Assembly: GCA_016235865.1 (NCBI GenBank)
Contig: JACRIK010000003.1
Span: 62,001 to 126,000 of the forward strand
Length of the DNA: 64,000 nt
Direction: 5' to 3'
Origin: Planctomycetota bacterium
Lineage (GTDB): Bacteria; Planctomycetota; MHYJ01; JACQXL01
Shown piece after piece: positions 15,848 through 25,479 of the stretch. Below the pieces are notes generated by a model. That model made no database searches, was not told the DNA's origin, and was given only the letters and a program-made list of their open reading frames with translations. A program made the translations under genes and the position numbers. The stretch's first letter is position 1, and the number at the start of each line of letters is the position of its first letter.

Positions 15848-15944
15848 TGGCGGAGGCGTGTAGGAATCGAACCTACCCATCCCGCTTGTGGCGGAATACG
15901 CTGGCTTTGAAGACCAGGAGGGCCACCAGACCCCTTTCACCTCC
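15848..15944 (-). tRNA. selC: tRNA-Sec (UCA)
   Basis: This is the selenocysteine tRNA that SelA charges and SelB delivers to recoded UGA codons. The anticodon loop CTTCAAA presents UCA on a CTGGT/GCCAG stem. The long variable arm forms ATTCCGC/GCGGGAT, the T-arm is GTAGG-TTCGATT-CCTAC, and the acceptor is GGAGGTG/CGCCTCC with discriminator G. CCA is encoded (15850-15848). The length of ~97 with a long extra arm is typical. selB starts on the same strand upstream, and two inverted repeat copies abut both ends. Confidence 0.95.
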
Positions 15945-16031: not shown

Positions 16032-17954
16032 TTACCTATGCTCCATGTTCGCCAACACCCTTACATCACCTTCCCTTTTAGTCACCTTGATGGTATCCAG
16101 GTATTCTAATAACGGAATCGCGTATTTGCGAGAAGTATTCACCAATCTGGAAAACTCGCCGGCTTTAATATTCGCATTCCGGTTCAGGTGTTCCTTGAGC
16201 GCCTGGGTCGCTTTGATTACGGCCTGGCGGTGCATGACCACACCATCGGACAGGCCCACCAAAATATCCATCTCCTTTAATATATGAATCATCTCCTCCA
16301 AGGCCCTGGGTTTTACATTCAATGCCTTTTCCAGGCCATCAATCCCGGGCGGGCTGAAGAGGTTATCAAGGAAAATCTTTTCCGTCCGCTCCTTAAGTTG
16401 CGCTTGTTTATCGGTCAGTTTAATGGAATATCGGCTGAGTTTGGCGGATTCACCGGTTAATTGCACCGCACCCTCTTCGGATAACCCGGTTAATGCGCTT
16501 TCAATAAAATCATCCGTTATTGCGCTTTTAGCCAATACTGATTTTATCTCCTTGAGCGGGATATTAATTATGGCTGGGTTCTTAAGATAAAAGTCGTTCA
16601 TCTCCTTGATTATCCGGTCTTTGAGCAGCCTGAAATTATCGGCATGCATTATCCGCCGGGCTCTGGCTCCGGCAATAATTACCCGCCCCGCGTCTGATAA
16701 TTTATTGATGGCCTGTTCCACCTCCGGTTCGGGCAGATTGACCTTGGCCAGAATATCTTTGGAATTAACGGAAACGATGCCTGAATTAATCAGCACCTGC
16801 TCCACCGAATCTCCGTCATCAGACACCTCCAGCGCTTCAAGCTGCTCCACAATCTCGGCCTGAAAGCGCTTGTGTTTTACCGGATGGGCATCAATGATAT
16901 GCCCGCCGCCGATGGTAATCATCGGCGCATATAAACGCATCACAAACCGGTCGTCCTTGGCCACGCTCAGCGGCAACTCAGACTTAAACTGGATGAGGCC
17001 GTCCTGTCCCGGCTCAAGTTTATCCTTATCCAGCAGAACAATCCGTCCCAGGAACTCACCGGTGCCGATATGTAGCCGGACCCGGGTAAAGTTCTTGACC
17101 GGACGCGGGCAACCGGGCAGAATCTCTATAGCCGCGTCAAATATGGAGGTCGGGGCAATATAACCCGGCGCAGCCAGGGTATTGCCTCGAATCAGGTCTT
17201 CCTTCTTGATGCCGGCCAGGTTTATACCGGCCCGCTGGCCGGCTGTAATCTGGGCCACCTTGCCGCCGTAGGACTGGATTTGGCGCACCCGGGCCGGAAT
17301 CTTCTGGGGCAACACCTCAAGGATATCATTAACCTTCAATACCCCGCTGACCAATGTGCCGGTAATGACCGTACCCGAACCGCTCATGGTAAAGATACGG
17401 TCTATCGGCAAACGGACCGGCAGGTCTTTATTGCGCTGGGGAATATTGGGCGCCAGGCGGTCTATGGTGTTGATTAATTCGGGCAATCCCGCGCCGGTGA
17501 CTGACGATACTTTGAGCACCGGCGCATTCTCCAGAAAACTGCCTTTGACCAATTCGGAAATCCCAAGCATAGTTTCTTCCAGGCGTTCCGGACTGGTTAT
17601 ATCCACCTTGGTTAGGACAATAATTCCGCTCTTGATAGCCAGCAGATTCAGGATATCAAAATGCTCCCGGGTCTGGGGCTTAACGCCCTCGTTGGCATCA
17701 ACCACAAACAGGACCAGGTCAACGGTATTAACCCCGGCCAGCATATTCTTGATAAAGCGCTCATGACCCGGGACATCAATTATCTGGGCCAGCCGCCCGC
17801 CGGGCAGGAGGAAATTGGCGAACCCGATGTCTATAGTCATCTCCCGCTCTTTTTCCTCTTTGAGCCGGTCCGGGTCAATCCCGCTTAAGGCCTTAATCAG
17901 CGTGCTCTTGCCGTGGTCCACGTGACCGGCTGTGCCAATCAAAACATATTCCAT
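16032..17954 (-). CDS. selB: selenocysteine-specific elongation factor SelB
   Basis: SelB is the GTPase that carries Sec-tRNA to in-frame UGA codons by binding the SECIS hairpin. The 640-residue protein has the P-loop [14 protein letters not shown], switch [14 protein letters not shown] and the guanine-specificity motif TKVD. EF-Tu-like domains II/III follow, then a Sel-specific domain and the C-terminal winged-helix array (~420-640) that binds mRNA. The length equals that of family members (~610-640). It sits between the NapH-like gene and tRNA-Sec on the same strand. Confidence 0.97.
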
Positions 17955-19326: not shown

Positions 19327-20502
19327 TCAGTCAATCATTTCCAGTAATGCCTGGATGCGCGATTTTAACTGCCCGGAATCAGACGGCGAATAGTTGGTTT
19401 CTATTTTCAGATACGGCAAGCGGTGTTTCTGCTTGATGTGCTTTCGGATAAAGTATGACTCCACATCATAGGTCAGACAGCCCTGCCAGATAAGTTCTAT
19501 AACGGCCTGGGGCTTATATTGCTTTATCAGTCGGTCCAGCGCCTTCAGGCGCCGGGTGTTCGGAGTCATGACCGAACAAGGCAGGTAGAAGTATTTCTCA
19601 GCCAGCGCCTGAATCGGGTCAATGTCCTCGCGCACATCTGTTTCAATTGGCCTTAAGCCGGTGCAGTTTTCCTGGGCCACTACCGCGCCGCCCACGTCCT
19701 CTATAATCCTCATCACCTTTTCCGCCTCGTGCGGCATAGGCACTCCGGTGACCAGGATGCGCGGGCGCCCGTCTTTCTTAGAATCATTTCTTCTGGCCGA
19801 GCTGACTATGGCATCATAGGCCTTGAAATCATCAGGTATGCCGGAGATTAAACTCTTGGCATTGAGGATATCCATGCCGGACAGGAGAGGCGGATTCGAT
19901 TTGGCCAGCTCGGCTATTTGCCGCCTGAGTTGGCGTTCCTGATTCATAACCTTAATCGCAGCTTTCAATCGCTTGTCGGTTATCTTGGTCCCGAATTCCT
20001 TTTCCAGATACTTCCGGAACTTAACCAATTCCTGTTTCCAGTGCTCAAACGCCTGCTTGTCATCTACCTTCTGGGGCAGTTCCAGGATATACATCGGCCT
20101 GGTCTGTCCGAGAATCTCAAACATCTTCTTCTTGCCGTCGCAGGTGGTCTCGCCGACCAGCAAATCAGCCATTTCCAGAAACGGATTGCATTTGAGTTTG
20201 GCGTAGCCGTAGGAACTCTTAATCAGCGGGCAGAGATTAGCCGGCAGGTCCTGCTCAGCCGCCGAGATGGTCTGGTTACTGCCCCCGCACATGCACACCG
20301 GCACGGCATTGGCGGCCATAATGATTTCCCGGGGCGTGTATTCGCAGAATATGCCGACTATTGGTTTGCCCTGTTTCTTGGCCTGACGGGCATACTTGAG
20401 GCAGTTCTCAATCATATGGTCAAAATACGCCAGAGGATTCTGGGTTGGACAACAGGATTTAGCAGATTGAACGGAACAACAAGAGGATTTACTACTAACC
20501 AT
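19327..20502 (-). CDS. 2-hydroxyacyl-CoA dehydratase/double-cubane-cluster family protein
   Basis: The product is 391 residues if the ATG at 20502 is used; a GTG four codons upstream is weaker. It belongs to the HgdB/BcrB/YjiM family: FCEYTPREIIMAANAVPVCMCGG, LVGETTCDGKKKMFEIL, VAQENCTGLRP and QGCLTYD carry the conserved Cys ligands of a low-potential Fe-S cluster. The known enzymes need an ATP-driven activator; such an activator is encoded at 39924-40703. The N-terminus carries two Cys-Cys pairs (SSCCSV, KSCCPT), an unusual extra. Its substrate is unknown, and its place between sel genes suggests a selenium- or redox-linked role (inference). Confidence 0.85.
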   Translation of the reverse strand: MVSSKSSCCSVQSAKSCCPTQNPLAYFDHMIENCLKYARQAKKQGKPIVGIFCEYTPREIIMAANAVPVCMCGGSNQTISAAEQDLPANLCPLIKSSYGYAKLKCNPFLEMADLLVGETTCDGKKKMFEILGQTRPMYILELPQKVDDKQAFEHWKQELVKFRKYLEKEFGTKITDKRLKAAIKVMNQERQLRRQIAELAKSNPPLLSGMDILNAKSLISGIPDDFKAYDAIVSSARRNDSKKDGRPRILVTGVPMPHEAEKVMRIIEDVGGAVVAQENCTGLRPIETDVREDIDPIQALAEKYFYLPCSVMTPNTRRLKALDRLIKQYKPQAVIELIWQGCLTYDVESYFIRKHIKQKHRLPYLKIETNYSPSDSGQLKSRIQALLEMID

Positions 20503-20511
20503 AATATTTAA

Positions 20512-20597
20512 CACGAATCACACGAATAGAACGAATAAGACGAATAAGTAATTACATTCGTACCATTCGCTCCGATTCGTGTCATTCGTGTTCGTAT
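20512..20597. repeat. CACGAAT phrase palindrome
   Basis: aacacgaatcacacgaatagaac on the left is answered by ccgattcgtgtcattcgtgttcg on the right, an imperfect ~85-bp palindrome made of ACGAAT/ATTCGT words between the dehydratase and selD. A sister element lies at 21655-21753. Confidence 0.6.
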
Positions 20598-20599
20598 TC

Positions 20600-21646
20600 C
20601 TATTTACCCAATACAATATGTGATTCCTGATTAGGAATCACCTCGCCGACCACGACCGCATCGCTGACGCCCTGGTTATGCAGTTCTTTAAGCATCTCAT
20701 CCGCCTTGTCCTTGGGCACGGACATCAATAGCCCGCCTGAGGTCTGAGCATCAAACGCGATATTCTGCATCTCTTCAGCCACCCCGTCTTCTATCCGGCT
20801 AAACTGGCCGTAATAGTCCTTATTGCTGAACGACCCGCCTGGCATAATACTGTCCCGGGCAAATGCCCTGGCCTCTTCAAACACCGGAATCTGCTCGGCG
20901 CTGAATCTCAGTGTCACCTGGCTCATCAGCCCGATATTATAAGCGTGGCCTATCAGCCCGAATCCGGTTATATCAGTACAAGCATTCGTTCCTATCTTAA
21001 GCATCACCTCGGACGCGGTCTTGTTGAGCGTGGCCATTGATTTAACTATCCGTTTCATCAGGTCATCAGCCACCTTATCCATGGTGTTAGCCATGGTAAT
21101 AATCCCGATGCCCAGCGGCTTAGTCAGTATCAACACATCGCCGACCCCGGCGCCGGCATTGGTGACTATCCTCTTCGGGTGAATCAGGCCGGTCACAGCC
21201 ATGCCGTATTTAACCTCCGGGTCAATGATGCTGTGCCCGCCCACGATGACCGCGCCGGATTCCTTGACCTTATCCGCCCCACCCTTGAGAATCTGAGCGA
21301 TGACATTGTGGTCCATCTTCTTGGGCGGAAACCCAATGATATTCAGCACGGTCAAAGGCCGGCCGCCCATGGCATAGACATCGCTCAGGGAATTGGCCGC
21401 CACAATCGCGCCGTAGTCATAGGGGTCGTCCACCACCGGCGTAAAGATATCCACGGTCTGGACCAGGGCAATCTCGTCGCTGATGCGATAGACCCCGGCG
21501 TCATCAAGCGTATCACCGCTGACCAGCATATTGGCATCCTCAAATTTGGGCAATTGGCGCAGAACCTGCGCCAGGTCCTTGGGGGACATCTTGCCGGCTC
21601 AGCCCACGCACGAGACAAATTTGGTCAATCTTACTTTTTCTGTCAT
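20600..21646 (-). CDS. selD: selenide, water dikinase, selenocysteine-containing form
   Basis: SelD makes selenophosphate from selenide and ATP. A conventional call would begin at the internal Met at 21589 (MSPKD) and lose the active site. The frame is open upstream to an ATG at 21646 through one TGA (21601-21599), giving VSCVGUAGK with Sec at residue 16, the position of the catalytic Cys of E. coli SelD. The full product is 348 residues, normal for SelD. It keeps the ATP-binding segments SDVYAMGG and VGGHSIIDPE and the NACTDITGFG motif. A hairpin at 21555-21573 is a good SECIS. It is downstream of selA, separated by a phrase palindrome. Confidence 0.9.
21555..21573 (-). promoter_or_regulatory. 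candidate SECIS hairpin in selD
   Basis: The mRNA forms a perfect eight-pair stem, UGGCGCAG-GUU-CUGCGCCA. The loop begins with G 34 bases after the UGA, within the accepted 16-37 nt window for bacterial SECIS elements. A weaker alternative, GUCC-CCCAA-GGAC, lies closer to the UGA but lacks G at the loop start. Confidence 0.65.
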
Positions 21647-21753: not shown

Positions 21754-23220
21754 TTATCTTATTATCTCTTTCAACGCATTTATTATTTCAGTATCTTCGC
21801 CATCCAAAATAGTCCGCATATCAAAGAGCACCCGGTTATCCTTGAGCCGGGCTAAAATAGGTATCTCGCGCTGCCTGAGTTGGTCGGATAATCTCTGGGC
21901 TGAAATGCCCTTGGGTTTTATTGCCACGGCCTTGGTCGGTATATTGTATCCGGCCAGGGAACCGCTGCCGGCCTGGGAATAGTCGTCAATCACCACTGCG
22001 TCCGCCAACCTGTTCTTAAACGCCTCAGCCCTTTGGCCCAGCGTCTTTCTATCAGTGGTCAGCATCCTCAAGGTCGGGTTGGCCTGCATAACCGTATCCT
22101 TATCCCGGAATAATTTCAGGGTCTCTTCCAGTGCCACCAAGGTAAGTTTACCGGCCCGGAACGCCCGATATAACGGATTCTTCCTGATGACCTCAATATA
22201 TTTCTTCTTGCCGATAATAATGCCGGCCTGGGGACCGCCCATGAGTTTATCAGAGCTGAAGCAAATCACATCAGCTCCGGCCTTGATGCTCTCAGACACC
22301 AGCGGTTCGCCGGTCAGCCCGAAAGAAGACAGGTCAATTAATGCGCCGGAACCGATATCATCTATAACCGGTAGTTTATGCTTATGCCCCAATACGGCCA
22401 GCTCCTTGATATCCACCTCGGAGGTAAATCCGACAATCCGGAAATTACTGGCGTGGACCTTGAGCAGCGCTCCGGTATTGGCGTTAATCGCTTTTTGGTA
22501 ATCCTTGAGATGGGTCCGGTTGGTCGTGCCGATACTCTTCAGGCGTGCGCCGCTGGTCTCCATGATATCCGGAATCCGGAACGAGCCGCCGATTTCCACC
22601 ATCTGGCCGCGCGAGCAGACAACCTCCTTGCCCTTAGCCAGGGTATTGAGAATAAGAATCGTAGCCGCCGCATTGTTATTGACCACGGTCGCGGCCTGGG
22701 CGCCGGTCATCTCGCAAATCAGCCCTTCAATAATCTTATCCCGGTCTTTCCGCAATCCGGTCTTGAGGTCAACCGCCAGGCGCGAATAACCGCTGATATG
22801 ATGCTTGAGCGCATCCACAGCCGAAGCCGGCAGCACAGCCCGGCCCAGACCGGTATGAAGCACAATACCCGTGGCATTGATAGACCGGCGGAACAAAGGC
22901 ATAGTCCGCTGGCGCACCTCTTTCTCCACTAACGAGAATATTCCTTCTGTATCCGGCATCCGGAATCCGGCTATCTCTTCTCTATCCAACGTCCCGATGC
23001 CCTGCGAGGATGCGGGGCGCTCCGTTCGTGAGCATCGGAGCGCCTTGATTGACTGCCGGAGTTTATCTAAAACACTGCGCACGGATTGGACCACCAGGGA
23101 ACGCGGGCAGGCCGCTAAAAGCGCCGCTGTTTTATCGAATTGCAGTATCTCTTCAATGGACGGAATTCCTCTTAGCAAGACGCCTTTACTGTGTTTATCT
23201 GTGTCTATCTGTGGTTTCAT
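21754..23220 (-). CDS. selA: L-seryl-tRNA(Sec) selenium transferase
   Basis: SelA is a PLP enzyme that converts seryl-tRNA(Sec) to selenocysteinyl-tRNA(Sec) with selenophosphate. The 488-residue protein contains the PLP lysine in CFSSDKLMGGPQAG, plus NATGIVLHTGLGRAVL and VVNNNAAATILIL, typical family motifs. An unusual insert at about residues 59-77 (RCSRTERPASSQ region) is encoded by a GC-rich palindrome (23016-23044), GGCGCTCCG...CGGAGCGCC. Its ATG overlaps the stop of the upstream Cys-type SelD by one base (TAATG), so the two are coupled. Confidence 0.96.
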   Translation of the reverse strand: MKPQIDTDKHSKGVLLRGIPSIEEILQFDKTAALLAACPRSLVVQSVRSVLDKLRQSIKALRCSRTERPASSQGIGTLDREEIAGFRMPDTEGIFSLVEKEVRQRTMPLFRRSINATGIVLHTGLGRAVLPASAVDALKHHISGYSRLAVDLKTGLRKDRDKIIEGLICEMTGAQAATVVNNNAAATILILNTLAKGKEVVCSRGQMVEIGGSFRIPDIMETSGARLKSIGTTNRTHLKDYQKAINANTGALLKVHASNFRIVGFTSEVDIKELAVLGHKHKLPVIDDIGSGALIDLSSFGLTGEPLVSESIKAGADVICFSSDKLMGGPQAGIIIGKKKYIEVIRKNPLYRAFRAGKLTLVALEETLKLFRDKDTVMQANPTLRMLTTDRKTLGQRAEAFKNRLADAVVIDDYSQAGSGSLAGYNIPTKAVAIKPKGISAQRLSDQLRQREIPILARLKDNRVLFDMRTILDGEDTEIINALKEIIR

Positions 23221-24260
23221 TATATTACGGTAATTCGCTTCTTTCCCGGTTTTATAACCCTACCAATAATGGTTGCCTCTTTAATACCTTTCGCCCTGAG
23301 TTTTTGCAACAATAATTGCGCCTTATTCTGAGGCACGCTTATCAACAACCCGCCTGAGGTCTGCGGGTCAAAGAGCAGATTAACCATTTCCTCAGGCAGT
23401 CCTTTGGGCATGCTGACATAACGCTGATATGACCGCCGGTTATTGCGGGTGCCGCAGGGCACAAATCCGGCTTTAGACAGCTCCAGCGCCCCGTCAAACA
23501 TTGGCACGGCCTGGTGGTCTATAACCATGCTGACCCTGCTGTTTGACGCCATCAGATAACTATGCCCGATGAACGAAAAACCCGTCACATCCGTGCAGGC
23601 ATTGGCTTTCATCTTTACCGCTATTTCTGATGCAATCCTGTTAAGCGTGAGCATGGATTTAATAACCGGTTTCATCCCGTCCTGCTTAACCCTGCCGGCC
23701 TTGAGCGCCGAGGTAAATACCCCGGTGCCCAGCGGCTTGGTAAGTATCAGGCAATCGCCGGGCCGGGCCTGGGAATTGGTGATAATCTCATCCGGATGGA
23801 CTGTGCCGGTCACGGACAGTCCGTATTTCAGTTCCGTGTCATTGATGGTATGCCCGCCCACCAGGACCGCGCCGGATTCCTGAATCTTGTCCATCCCGCC
23901 CCTAAGCATTTCACGCAGGACATCAAGCGGGAATTTAGAGGCCGGGAAACCGACCACATTCATGGCGGTAATCGGTTTACCGCCCATGGCATAGACATCG
24001 CTCAGGGCATTAGTTGCGGCAATCTGGCCGAAGAGATAGGGCTGGTCCACGATAGGCGGGAAGAAATCCACGGTCTGGATGATGGCTATTTCAGGTGATA
24101 ATTTATATACGCCGGCATCATCAGGCCGGGCCAGGCCGACCAGGAGATTGGGGTGTCTGCTGATGGGCAGATTGCGCAGGGCGCTGGAAAGGATATCCGG
24201 GCTTAGTTTAGCGGCGCAGCCGCCGCTCTGGACCGTGCTGGTAAGCCGGATATTTGACAT
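23220..24260 (-). CDS. selD: selenide, water dikinase, cysteine-containing paralogue
   Basis: This is a second, complete SelD of 346 residues. The catalytic motif is GGCAAK (Cys at residue 15), where the other copy has Sec. ATP/Mg motifs are present: PDDAGVYKL, LSDVYAMGGKP, VGGHTINDTELKYG, NACTDVTGFS. It is clearly diverged from the Sec form, so this is not a recent duplication. It is directly upstream of and coupled to selA. A Sec-independent SelD could start selenophosphate supply before any Sec-SelD can be made (inference). Confidence 0.95.
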   Translation of the reverse strand: MSNIRLTSTVQSGGCAAKLSPDILSSALRNLPISRHPNLLVGLARPDDAGVYKLSPEIAIIQTVDFFPPIVDQPYLFGQIAATNALSDVYAMGGKPITAMNVVGFPASKFPLDVLREMLRGGMDKIQESGAVLVGGHTINDTELKYGLSVTGTVHPDEIITNSQARPGDCLILTKPLGTGVFTSALKAGRVKQDGMKPVIKSMLTLNRIASEIAVKMKANACTDVTGFSFIGHSYLMASNSRVSMVIDHQAVPMFDGALELSKAGFVPCGTRNNRRSYQRYVSMPKGLPEEMVNLLFDPQTSGGLLISVPQNKAQLLLQKLRAKGIKEATIIGRVIKPGKKRITVI

Positions 24261-24268
24261 AGTACTCG

Positions 24269-24348
24269 CCCCGTTAGAAAGCCCCTTAAAGAGCAGATAA
24301 ACCTACATTTCTGCCTAAGAATATCGCGTTTAGAACTTTCTAACGGGG
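24269..24348. repeat. inverted-repeat element, CCCCGTTAGA family, copy 1
   Basis: A perfect 13-bp inverted repeat, CCCCGTTAGAAAG (24269-24281) and CTTTCTAACGGGG (24336-24348), encloses 54 bases. It lies between the Cys-SelD start and the exported selenoprotein. A second copy is at 30945-31057. Confidence 0.7.
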
Positions 24349-24360
24349 TAAAGTGCACAA

Positions 24361-25365
24361 TCATTCCCCTTTCTCTCCTTTCACCTCGCCGAGCAGTTTG
24401 TGGTTGCAGAAGAGTTTCACGCTAAAGGGGCGCTGGGCACCTTTCTTTACTCCACCGGAGTAATCATTAATCGAGCCCCCTCAGCCCACACAGAAGGCGC
24501 CTTTGCTGACCTGGGTTTTCGCGCCATCGAGCACCTCGACCTGGGGGAAAATCTTGGGGCTGAAATTATAGTATTCCTCATCCGCGCTGCCAAAGACCCG
24601 GATGGATTTATAGGTCACCTTGACCTTGTCGTAGTCGTCCACGGAAAAATTAAACTCAAACCTGAATGACGCGCCCCACTGGACGCTGGTCGTGACTATC
24701 TTACCGTCCTTGTCAACCGCCTCGGCCACCTCTATGGGCTTCATCTGGTTCTGCTTGATAGCCGCGTGGCTGGTGCCTTCCTCAATATAGCCCAGCCAGA
24801 GATTATAGGAACCGACCGGCACCAGGGCTTTCTTGTTGCCGGCCACATTAATATAGATATCGCCGGAATTGACGATGAGCAGGTCCACGCCGGTCGGGCA
24901 CTTAAATCCGCCCAGCAGGTCGAGCTCGTTGCATTTGCCTTCGTAGGGCTTGAGCGAGATACTTACGCCCTTGGGGTCGACCTTGCACTCGTAGAGCTTG
25001 TTCTTGAGATTGATGACGCTGCTGACCGGCACGCCGTAGCGGGACTTGTCAAAGACCATCAGGTCGGTACCGATCTCATCATACGAGCCGTTCTTGTTCT
25101 GGTCAATCAGCATCAATTCCACGCCTTCCACCTTGCCGGAACTGAAGACCGGGAAATCATCCGGCACGTGCTTATCCTCCTGAATCAACTGCGGGGTGAG
25201 CACCTTGGCGAACGAAGACGGCCTATTATTGGTGTTGTTGGTCACGGCCATGGGATAGTCCTTGACCTCGACCGACCTGGTGCTGGTATTATCCTGCGAC
25301 CTCAAGTCTGAAGAAACAAGAAATGCCAGGGCCAGAACCGACGAAAGGATGAGAATCTTTTTCAT
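24361..25365 (-). CDS. exported CxxU selenoprotein (predicted, novel)
   Basis: The true start is the ATG at 25365, eight bases after AGGAGG; an in-frame GTG at 25374 overlaps that Shine-Dalgarno site. A signal peptide covers ~1-25 (ILILSSVLALAFLVSS). The conventional frame ends at TGA (24483-24481) right after GAFCVG. Reading it as Sec gives FCVGUGGS (Sec295) followed by 38 more residues, including RPFSVKLFCNHKLLGEV, in the same GC-rich codon style, to a final TGA at 24361. The product is 334 residues. The body is beta-rich, with a DQNKNGSYDE metal-loop-like segment. Its promoter is a perfect consensus (25451-25479). CxxU suggests an exported thiol/selenol redox role; I recognise no family. 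Confidence 0.8.
24447..24463 (-). promoter_or_regulatory. SECIS hairpin of the exported selenoprotein
   Basis: The mRNA contains the perfect hairpin UUACUCC-GGU-GGAGUAA, its loop starting 25 bases after the UGA. The GGU loop recalls the AGGUCU loop of the E. coli fdhF SECIS. The hairpin lies within translated sequence, as usual in bacteria. This is the clearest SECIS of the three in the window. Confidence 0.75.
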
Positions 25366-25450
25366 AGTATGCACCTCCTATTTAGTTTGTTTGCGCGGCG
25401 CCGTAAATGCGCCCTCAATCACAGATGTGGACTCTAAGAATCTATATATT

Positions 25451-25479
25451 ATTATACCCCGTCATTAATCAGATGTCAA
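25451..25479 (-). promoter_or_regulatory. consensus sigma70-type promoter of the exported selenoprotein
   Basis: The minus strand reads TTGACA (25479-25474), a 17-base spacer and TATAAT (25456-25451), both boxes perfect. The leader to the ATG is about 80 bases and ends in AGGAGG. Strong constitutive transcription is expected, possibly extending into selD-selA. Confidence 0.85.

Follow-up and report, generated by a model that had tools for sequence, protein, structure and literature searches.

On the minus strand of the stretch of Planctomycetota DNA analysed here (64,000 nucleotides; hereafter the window), an open reading frame reaches a TGA codon immediately after the residues GAFCVG and runs on for another 39 codons to a second TGA. 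This raises the question of whether the first UGA ends the protein or is decoded as selenocysteine (Sec), and of what a selenoprotein of this kind might do. An earlier note on this DNA, from which the strand was missing, had read the frame through the UGA to a product of 334 residues, with AGGAGG and a perfect TTGACA-17-TATAAT promoter in front of it and a perfect hairpin behind the UGA. With the ATG placed at 25365, the in-frame TGA at 24483-24481 and the terminal TGA at 24363-24361, each of these elements was recovered, the promoter at 25479-25451 and the ribosome-binding site at 25379-25374:

25451..25479, minus strand: promoter match TTGACA-17-TATAAT, 12 of 12 positions, as a sequence match
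25374..25379, minus strand: AGGAGG ribosome-binding site, 8 nt 5' of the ATG
24361..25365, minus strand: putative selenoprotein gene for a product of 334 residues, Sec at 295, closed by the TGA stop; homologues share the UGA and the tail
24481..24483, minus strand: in-frame UGA read as Sec295, context FCVG-U-GGS; U falls in a single alignment column across all Sec members
24447..24463, minus strand: SECIS hairpin TTACTCC-GGT-GGAGTAA, perfect stem, loop beginning 24 nt past the UGA
24364..24480, minus strand: 39-codon tail 3' of the UGA, conserved, predicted strands of the C-terminal beta domain

The N-terminus of the product, MKKILILSSVLALAFLVSS, reads by eye as a signal peptide, as had been noted before, and from this feature we infer that the protein is exported. 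Between the gene and the selD gene that follows it lies a strong hairpin (24269-24348; z -5.2) with inverted CCCCGTTAGAAAG/CTTTCTAACGGGG arms. The paired element recurs with unlike interiors on contigs C1, C27 and C29 of the same genome, which also holds single or degenerate copies; it may be a small mobile element or have a regulatory role.

Among the 23 genomes of the window's class, homologues were found that share both the position of the UGA and the tail. A profile search of 392 Planctomycetota genomes detected relatives in at least 121, and reading of the loci established the Sec form in at least 51 of the 392 (about one in eight); in one alignment the U column was common to 58 sequences. 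We also searched genome_contigs, about 85,000 species genomes, for a DNA pattern in which the Sec codon could be TGA, TGC or TGT. The 59 matches comprised one unrelated chance match and 58 family members, every one of which carried TGA and none a Cys form; nearly all were labelled Planctomycetota, and three were complete genomes (Pla163, Pla86, and Poly30). A single-protein scan of genome_contigs found no relatives. Members of the phylum set and of the pattern scan together gave 83 non-identical homologues, in which the UGA occupies one common alignment column and is followed by a conserved tail of 35 to 60 residues. Natural Cys forms at the Sec position are rare, the two being GGC-C-GGG in L093 and GGS-C-GEG in L096. 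The opposite pattern, which that note had named as contrary to its reading, namely homologues that end at the UGA, with no Cys or Sec there and an unconserved tail, is not what the homologues show. Sec-free paralogues continue through the UGA region without a stop, and one of these belongs to the window's own genome (G000:C3:18726-19730). Sec-free relatives also occur in a larger form of about 700 to 830 residues (L059-L062), which shares the C-terminal domain and is common in the phylum. Across 21 close pairs the tail gave a pN/pS of 0.31, an uncorrected value in which the SECIS element also constrains synonymous sites, indicating that the tail evolves as protein.

The hairpin was assessed at 80 non-redundant homologous UGA sites against shuffled sequences that preserve the protein and codon use. 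With the loop starting 23 nt past the UGA, the mean energy was -7.95 kcal/mol, compared with -2.14 kcal/mol in the shuffles (z -21.6), and for loop starts of 20 to 25 a value of -5 kcal/mol or lower was reached at 78 of the 80 sites, versus 29.7 in the shuffles (maximum 35). The fold of the window sequence by itself is unremarkable (z -1.05); the hairpin is significant because its position is conserved across homologues. A search for the best hairpin at any position failed to tell real sequences from shuffled ones; with the loop position fixed, the two could be told apart. Stem sequences vary while pairing is kept (CTACTCC/GGAGTAG, GTACAC/GTGTAC, GGATATTC/GAATATCC), and the loops of homologues mostly start with CGTG, GGT or GTG. 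A bacterial SECIS loop is expected 16 to 37 nt past the UGA with a G in its first two positions, and the window has GGT at 24 nt; Rfam held no SECIS family matching the window site. The bacterial SECIS of the earlier note is thereby borne out, together with the conservation of the UGA column, the tail and the hairpin in homologues.

The gene had also been described as heading a selD-selA group. These two are indeed the next genes downstream, and the series continues as follows:

23220..24260, minus strand: first selD, in its Cys form (GGCAAK), immediately 3' of the selenoprotein gene (TIGR00476, 387.7 bits)
21754..23220, minus strand: selA (TIGR00474, 543.7 bits)
20600..21646, minus strand: second selD, encoding a selenoprotein in its own right (CVG-U-AGK, with the UGA at 21601-21599)
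19327..20514, minus strand: double-cubane-cluster anaerobic reductase (NF040772), adjoining the Sec-containing selD
16032..17954, minus strand: selB, Sec-specific elongation factor (TIGR00475, 324.3 bits)
15848..15944, minus strand: tRNA-Sec, anticodon TCA

As selD, selA, selB, and tRNA-Sec are all present, the window carries the complete Sec machinery. Cys-form and Sec-form SelD stand side by side in this one cluster, and by eye the second copy has an 8-bp perfect hairpin with a GUU loop 33 nt past its own UGA.

The selenoprotein gene lies within a sel gene cluster in six genomes, including that of the window. The order is gene-selD-selA-selB in G007 and gene, selD-AhpD fusion, selA, tRNA-Sec, selB in G317, with a similar arrangement in G143; in G281 the gene adjoins selB, with one selD on the same contig, and in G009 it adjoins selA and a second selD. 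G009 (L178) also has the same double-cubane-cluster reductase and Sec-containing SelD as neighbours, and the C-terminal AhpD-like domain of the G317 SelD (L160:3345-4991, minus strand) resembles the AhpD parts of known selenoproteins. Most members come from marine lineages, where the gene stands apart from sel genes and has other conserved genes beside it. In these lineages the selenoprotein gene is followed directly by a conserved gene for an exported product of about 780 residues (L157:3760-6297 and 44 other loci); the product shows weak TPR matches and, by eye, protease-like motifs, and matches no Pfam or NCBIfam family. Often a membrane protein gene comes next, and some of the loci also have a MoxR-type ATPase. 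In a quick tree of unknown root, the sel-linked members occupy two separate, well-supported places, which is consistent with an old link between the gene and the sel cluster. A strong tRNA-Sec (E cut-off of 1e-10, chosen once a gap in the values had been seen) was present in 42 of the 51 carrier genomes and in 185 of the 341 others (Fisher p 7.5e-5). SelA was found in seven of the nine carriers without a strong tRNA-Sec, so that 49 of 51 carriers have one or the other.

The residues around Sec are less uniform than the Sec itself. Among the 83 members, 62 have CU, eight CxxU (the window protein included), four UU, and one UC; five have a Cys four to six residues after Sec, one has it further off, and two have none near. 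A Cys or second Sec therefore lies within six residues of Sec in 80 of 83 members, at position -3, -1, +1, or +4 to +6, and, as most members have at most one further Cys in the body preceding Sec, such a nearby partner is the rule even though its position is not fixed. The CVGU motif on which the earlier note had built its redox proposal is present in the window protein; as a hallmark of the family, CxxU was rejected. Two adjacent UGA codons, which would give adjacent selenocysteines, occur in L053, L054, L064, and L065, two of these loci being in Pla163; L050 is the UC member.

On this comparative evidence, selenoprotein status is close to certain, and the window gene almost surely encodes a protein with Sec at position 295. 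An in-frame UGA with conserved coding on both sides, SelA, SelB, SelD and tRNA-Sec in the genome, and Cys homologues that are present but rare are what is expected of a bacterial selenoprotein. Translation table 11 reads UGA as a normal stop, which would make the tail a decaying or chance open frame; we consider this hardly conceivable, given that the tail is conserved in 83 homologues at the pN/pS given above and translated in the Sec-free paralogues, and that the SECIS element is conserved, so that the homologues already refute the stop. Decoding as another residue, for instance Trp, or leaky readthrough would account for the tail, as stable UGA readthrough of any kind would preserve it, and it is conserved. 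Here, however, the SECIS element and the sel-cluster location indicate Sec, as do the Cys forms at the site and the exchanges among CU, UU, and UC, and we rate such decoding as very improbable, if marginally less so than a genuine stop.

AlphaFold modelled the window protein with a pLDDT of 82 overall and about 86 to 91 around and after Sec up to residue 330, and the Poly30 homologue with a pLDDT of 93. In the model of the window protein, the last domain receives beta strands from the tail. The fold is predicted to be all-beta and not thioredoxin-like, with no thioredoxin match in the Sec domain. A Foldseek search of the PDB found no structure with an E-value under 0.001; TM-scores normalised to the query reached about 0.2 at most, and no known oxidoreductase was matched. 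Since matches in the PDB were absent or poor, we do not claim homology of fold. Conserved loops of the D-x-N-x-N-G type, recognised by eye, suggest putative calcium binding, and the family yielded one weak EF-hand and one FG-GAP match.

Association with thioredoxins was observed in two settings only. One member (L058/L063) carries an AhpC-TSA/Redoxin (TlpA-like) domain with WCGPC as a fusion partner, and in eight Rubripirellula-type loci a thioredoxin-EF-hand gene adjoins the selenoprotein gene. Because of this fusion and adjacency we favour a Sec/Cys redox pair served by an exported thioredoxin-like protein. In such a scheme, SelB with Sec-tRNA would recognise the hairpin just 3' of the UGA and insert Sec295, and translation would proceed through the 39-codon tail and so complete the final beta-sheet of an all-beta protein with several domains. 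Sec would then sit in a loop of the C-terminal domain beside a second chalcogen residue, which would be the Cys three positions before it in the window protein and, in most relatives, a directly neighbouring Cys or Sec. Outside the cytoplasm, the pair may alternate between selenol/thiol and selenylsulfide (or diselenide), acting on an oxidant or disulfide of the envelope, and may be re-reduced by the thioredoxin-like protein. The redox role, the partner and the substrate are inferred, and as a full explanation we regard this scheme as reasonably probable. Of the exported selenol-disulfide protein proposed earlier, export and Sec are supported, the former by the signal-peptide-like N-terminus, and the redox role is likely. 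The abundance that the note also proposed for it has the consensus promoter and the ribosome-binding site behind it and is tentative.

The main rival to a redox role is metal or metalloid binding, in which the vicinal Cys-Sec or Sec-Sec of the exported protein would serve as a soft-metal ligand, for mercury or copper for example, and not in catalysis. Several known CU selenoproteins (SaoL, SaoC, HgcA, and MbdU) are tied to the handling of mercury or other metals (PMC13188914), and an exported all-beta scaffold that has no relative among known redox enzymes would suit this role. In the loci examined, however, no metal-resistance genes recur beside the selenoprotein gene, the thioredoxin-like fusion or adjacency indicates thiol exchange, and the CxxU and UC arrangements fit an exchangeable selenylsulfide; we therefore consider metal binding unlikely. 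The presence of the gene in the sel cluster of six genomes from several families could instead reflect an exported protein that binds or delivers selenium for acquisition, storage or sensing. This we find more doubtful still, as in most members, the marine ones, the gene is found apart from sel genes, and one Sec per protein makes a poor store. With the redox pair as the preferred reading, it is tempting to speculate that the family forms an exported non-thioredoxin class with an immunoglobulin-like beta scaffold, nearly always with Sec, in which CU or UU provides an extracytoplasmic redox centre, and that it belonged ancestrally to the Planctomycetota sel operon and may contribute to retention of the Sec trait. 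This wider proposal is tentative, somewhat short of an even chance.

The comparative evidence points to an uncatalogued family of exported selenoproteins, phylum-wide in Planctomycetota, almost Sec-only and, in several lineages, tied to the sel cluster. The family had been called undescribed, and our searches agree: none of 46 distinct members matched any NCBIfam model (June 2026), Pfam gave no family match beyond isolated weak hits to FG-GAP, EF-hand and similar, the PDB offered no counterpart, and the 2026 list of 119 prokaryotic selenoprotein families and subfamilies (PMC13188914) has no entry that fits it. A description of the family was not found in the open-access literature, although a prior entry is possible in table S9 of PMC4807772, which lists candidates from two algal Planctomycetes. 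Predictors that require Cys homologues, a limit that deep-Sep states for itself (PMC12013277), are expected to discard the family because it has almost none, and standard annotation would end these proteins early, at the UGA. The evidence is comparative throughout, with UGA and tail conservation, SECIS, machinery, and fold prediction all computed, and many of the genomes are metagenome assemblies; the complete genomes of the named strains Pla163, Pla86, and Poly30 make the family testable. With it, the known selenoproteins gain a phylum-wide family whose fold is unusual and in which neighbouring Sec-Sec pairs occur naturally, and a reason is suggested why many Planctomycetota retain selenium machinery.

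With the catalogued selenoproteins (PMC13188914, NCBIfam) the family shares Sec at a UGA, a bacterial SECIS close downstream and a CxxU or CU neighbour motif, but differs from them as a non-thioredoxin, exported, multi-domain beta protein with almost no Cys homologues. The Sec-containing SelD of the window shares the tetrapeptide CVGU, with G-rich sequence after it, and belongs to the same gene cluster; its fold and sequence are nevertheless unrelated, SelD being a cytoplasmic kinase with Sec near its N-terminus. Mammalian thioredoxin reductase ends in GCUG, a vicinal Cys-Sec followed by Gly. The same succession occurs in the new family, without homology and, in contrast to the reductase, in a loop that would lie inside an exported beta domain, with UU and UC variants. 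TlpA/ResA-like exported thioredoxins, fused to one member through a WCGPC domain and represented by thioredoxin-type genes adjoining others, have a different fold, which makes them a possible partner of the new family and not a relative.
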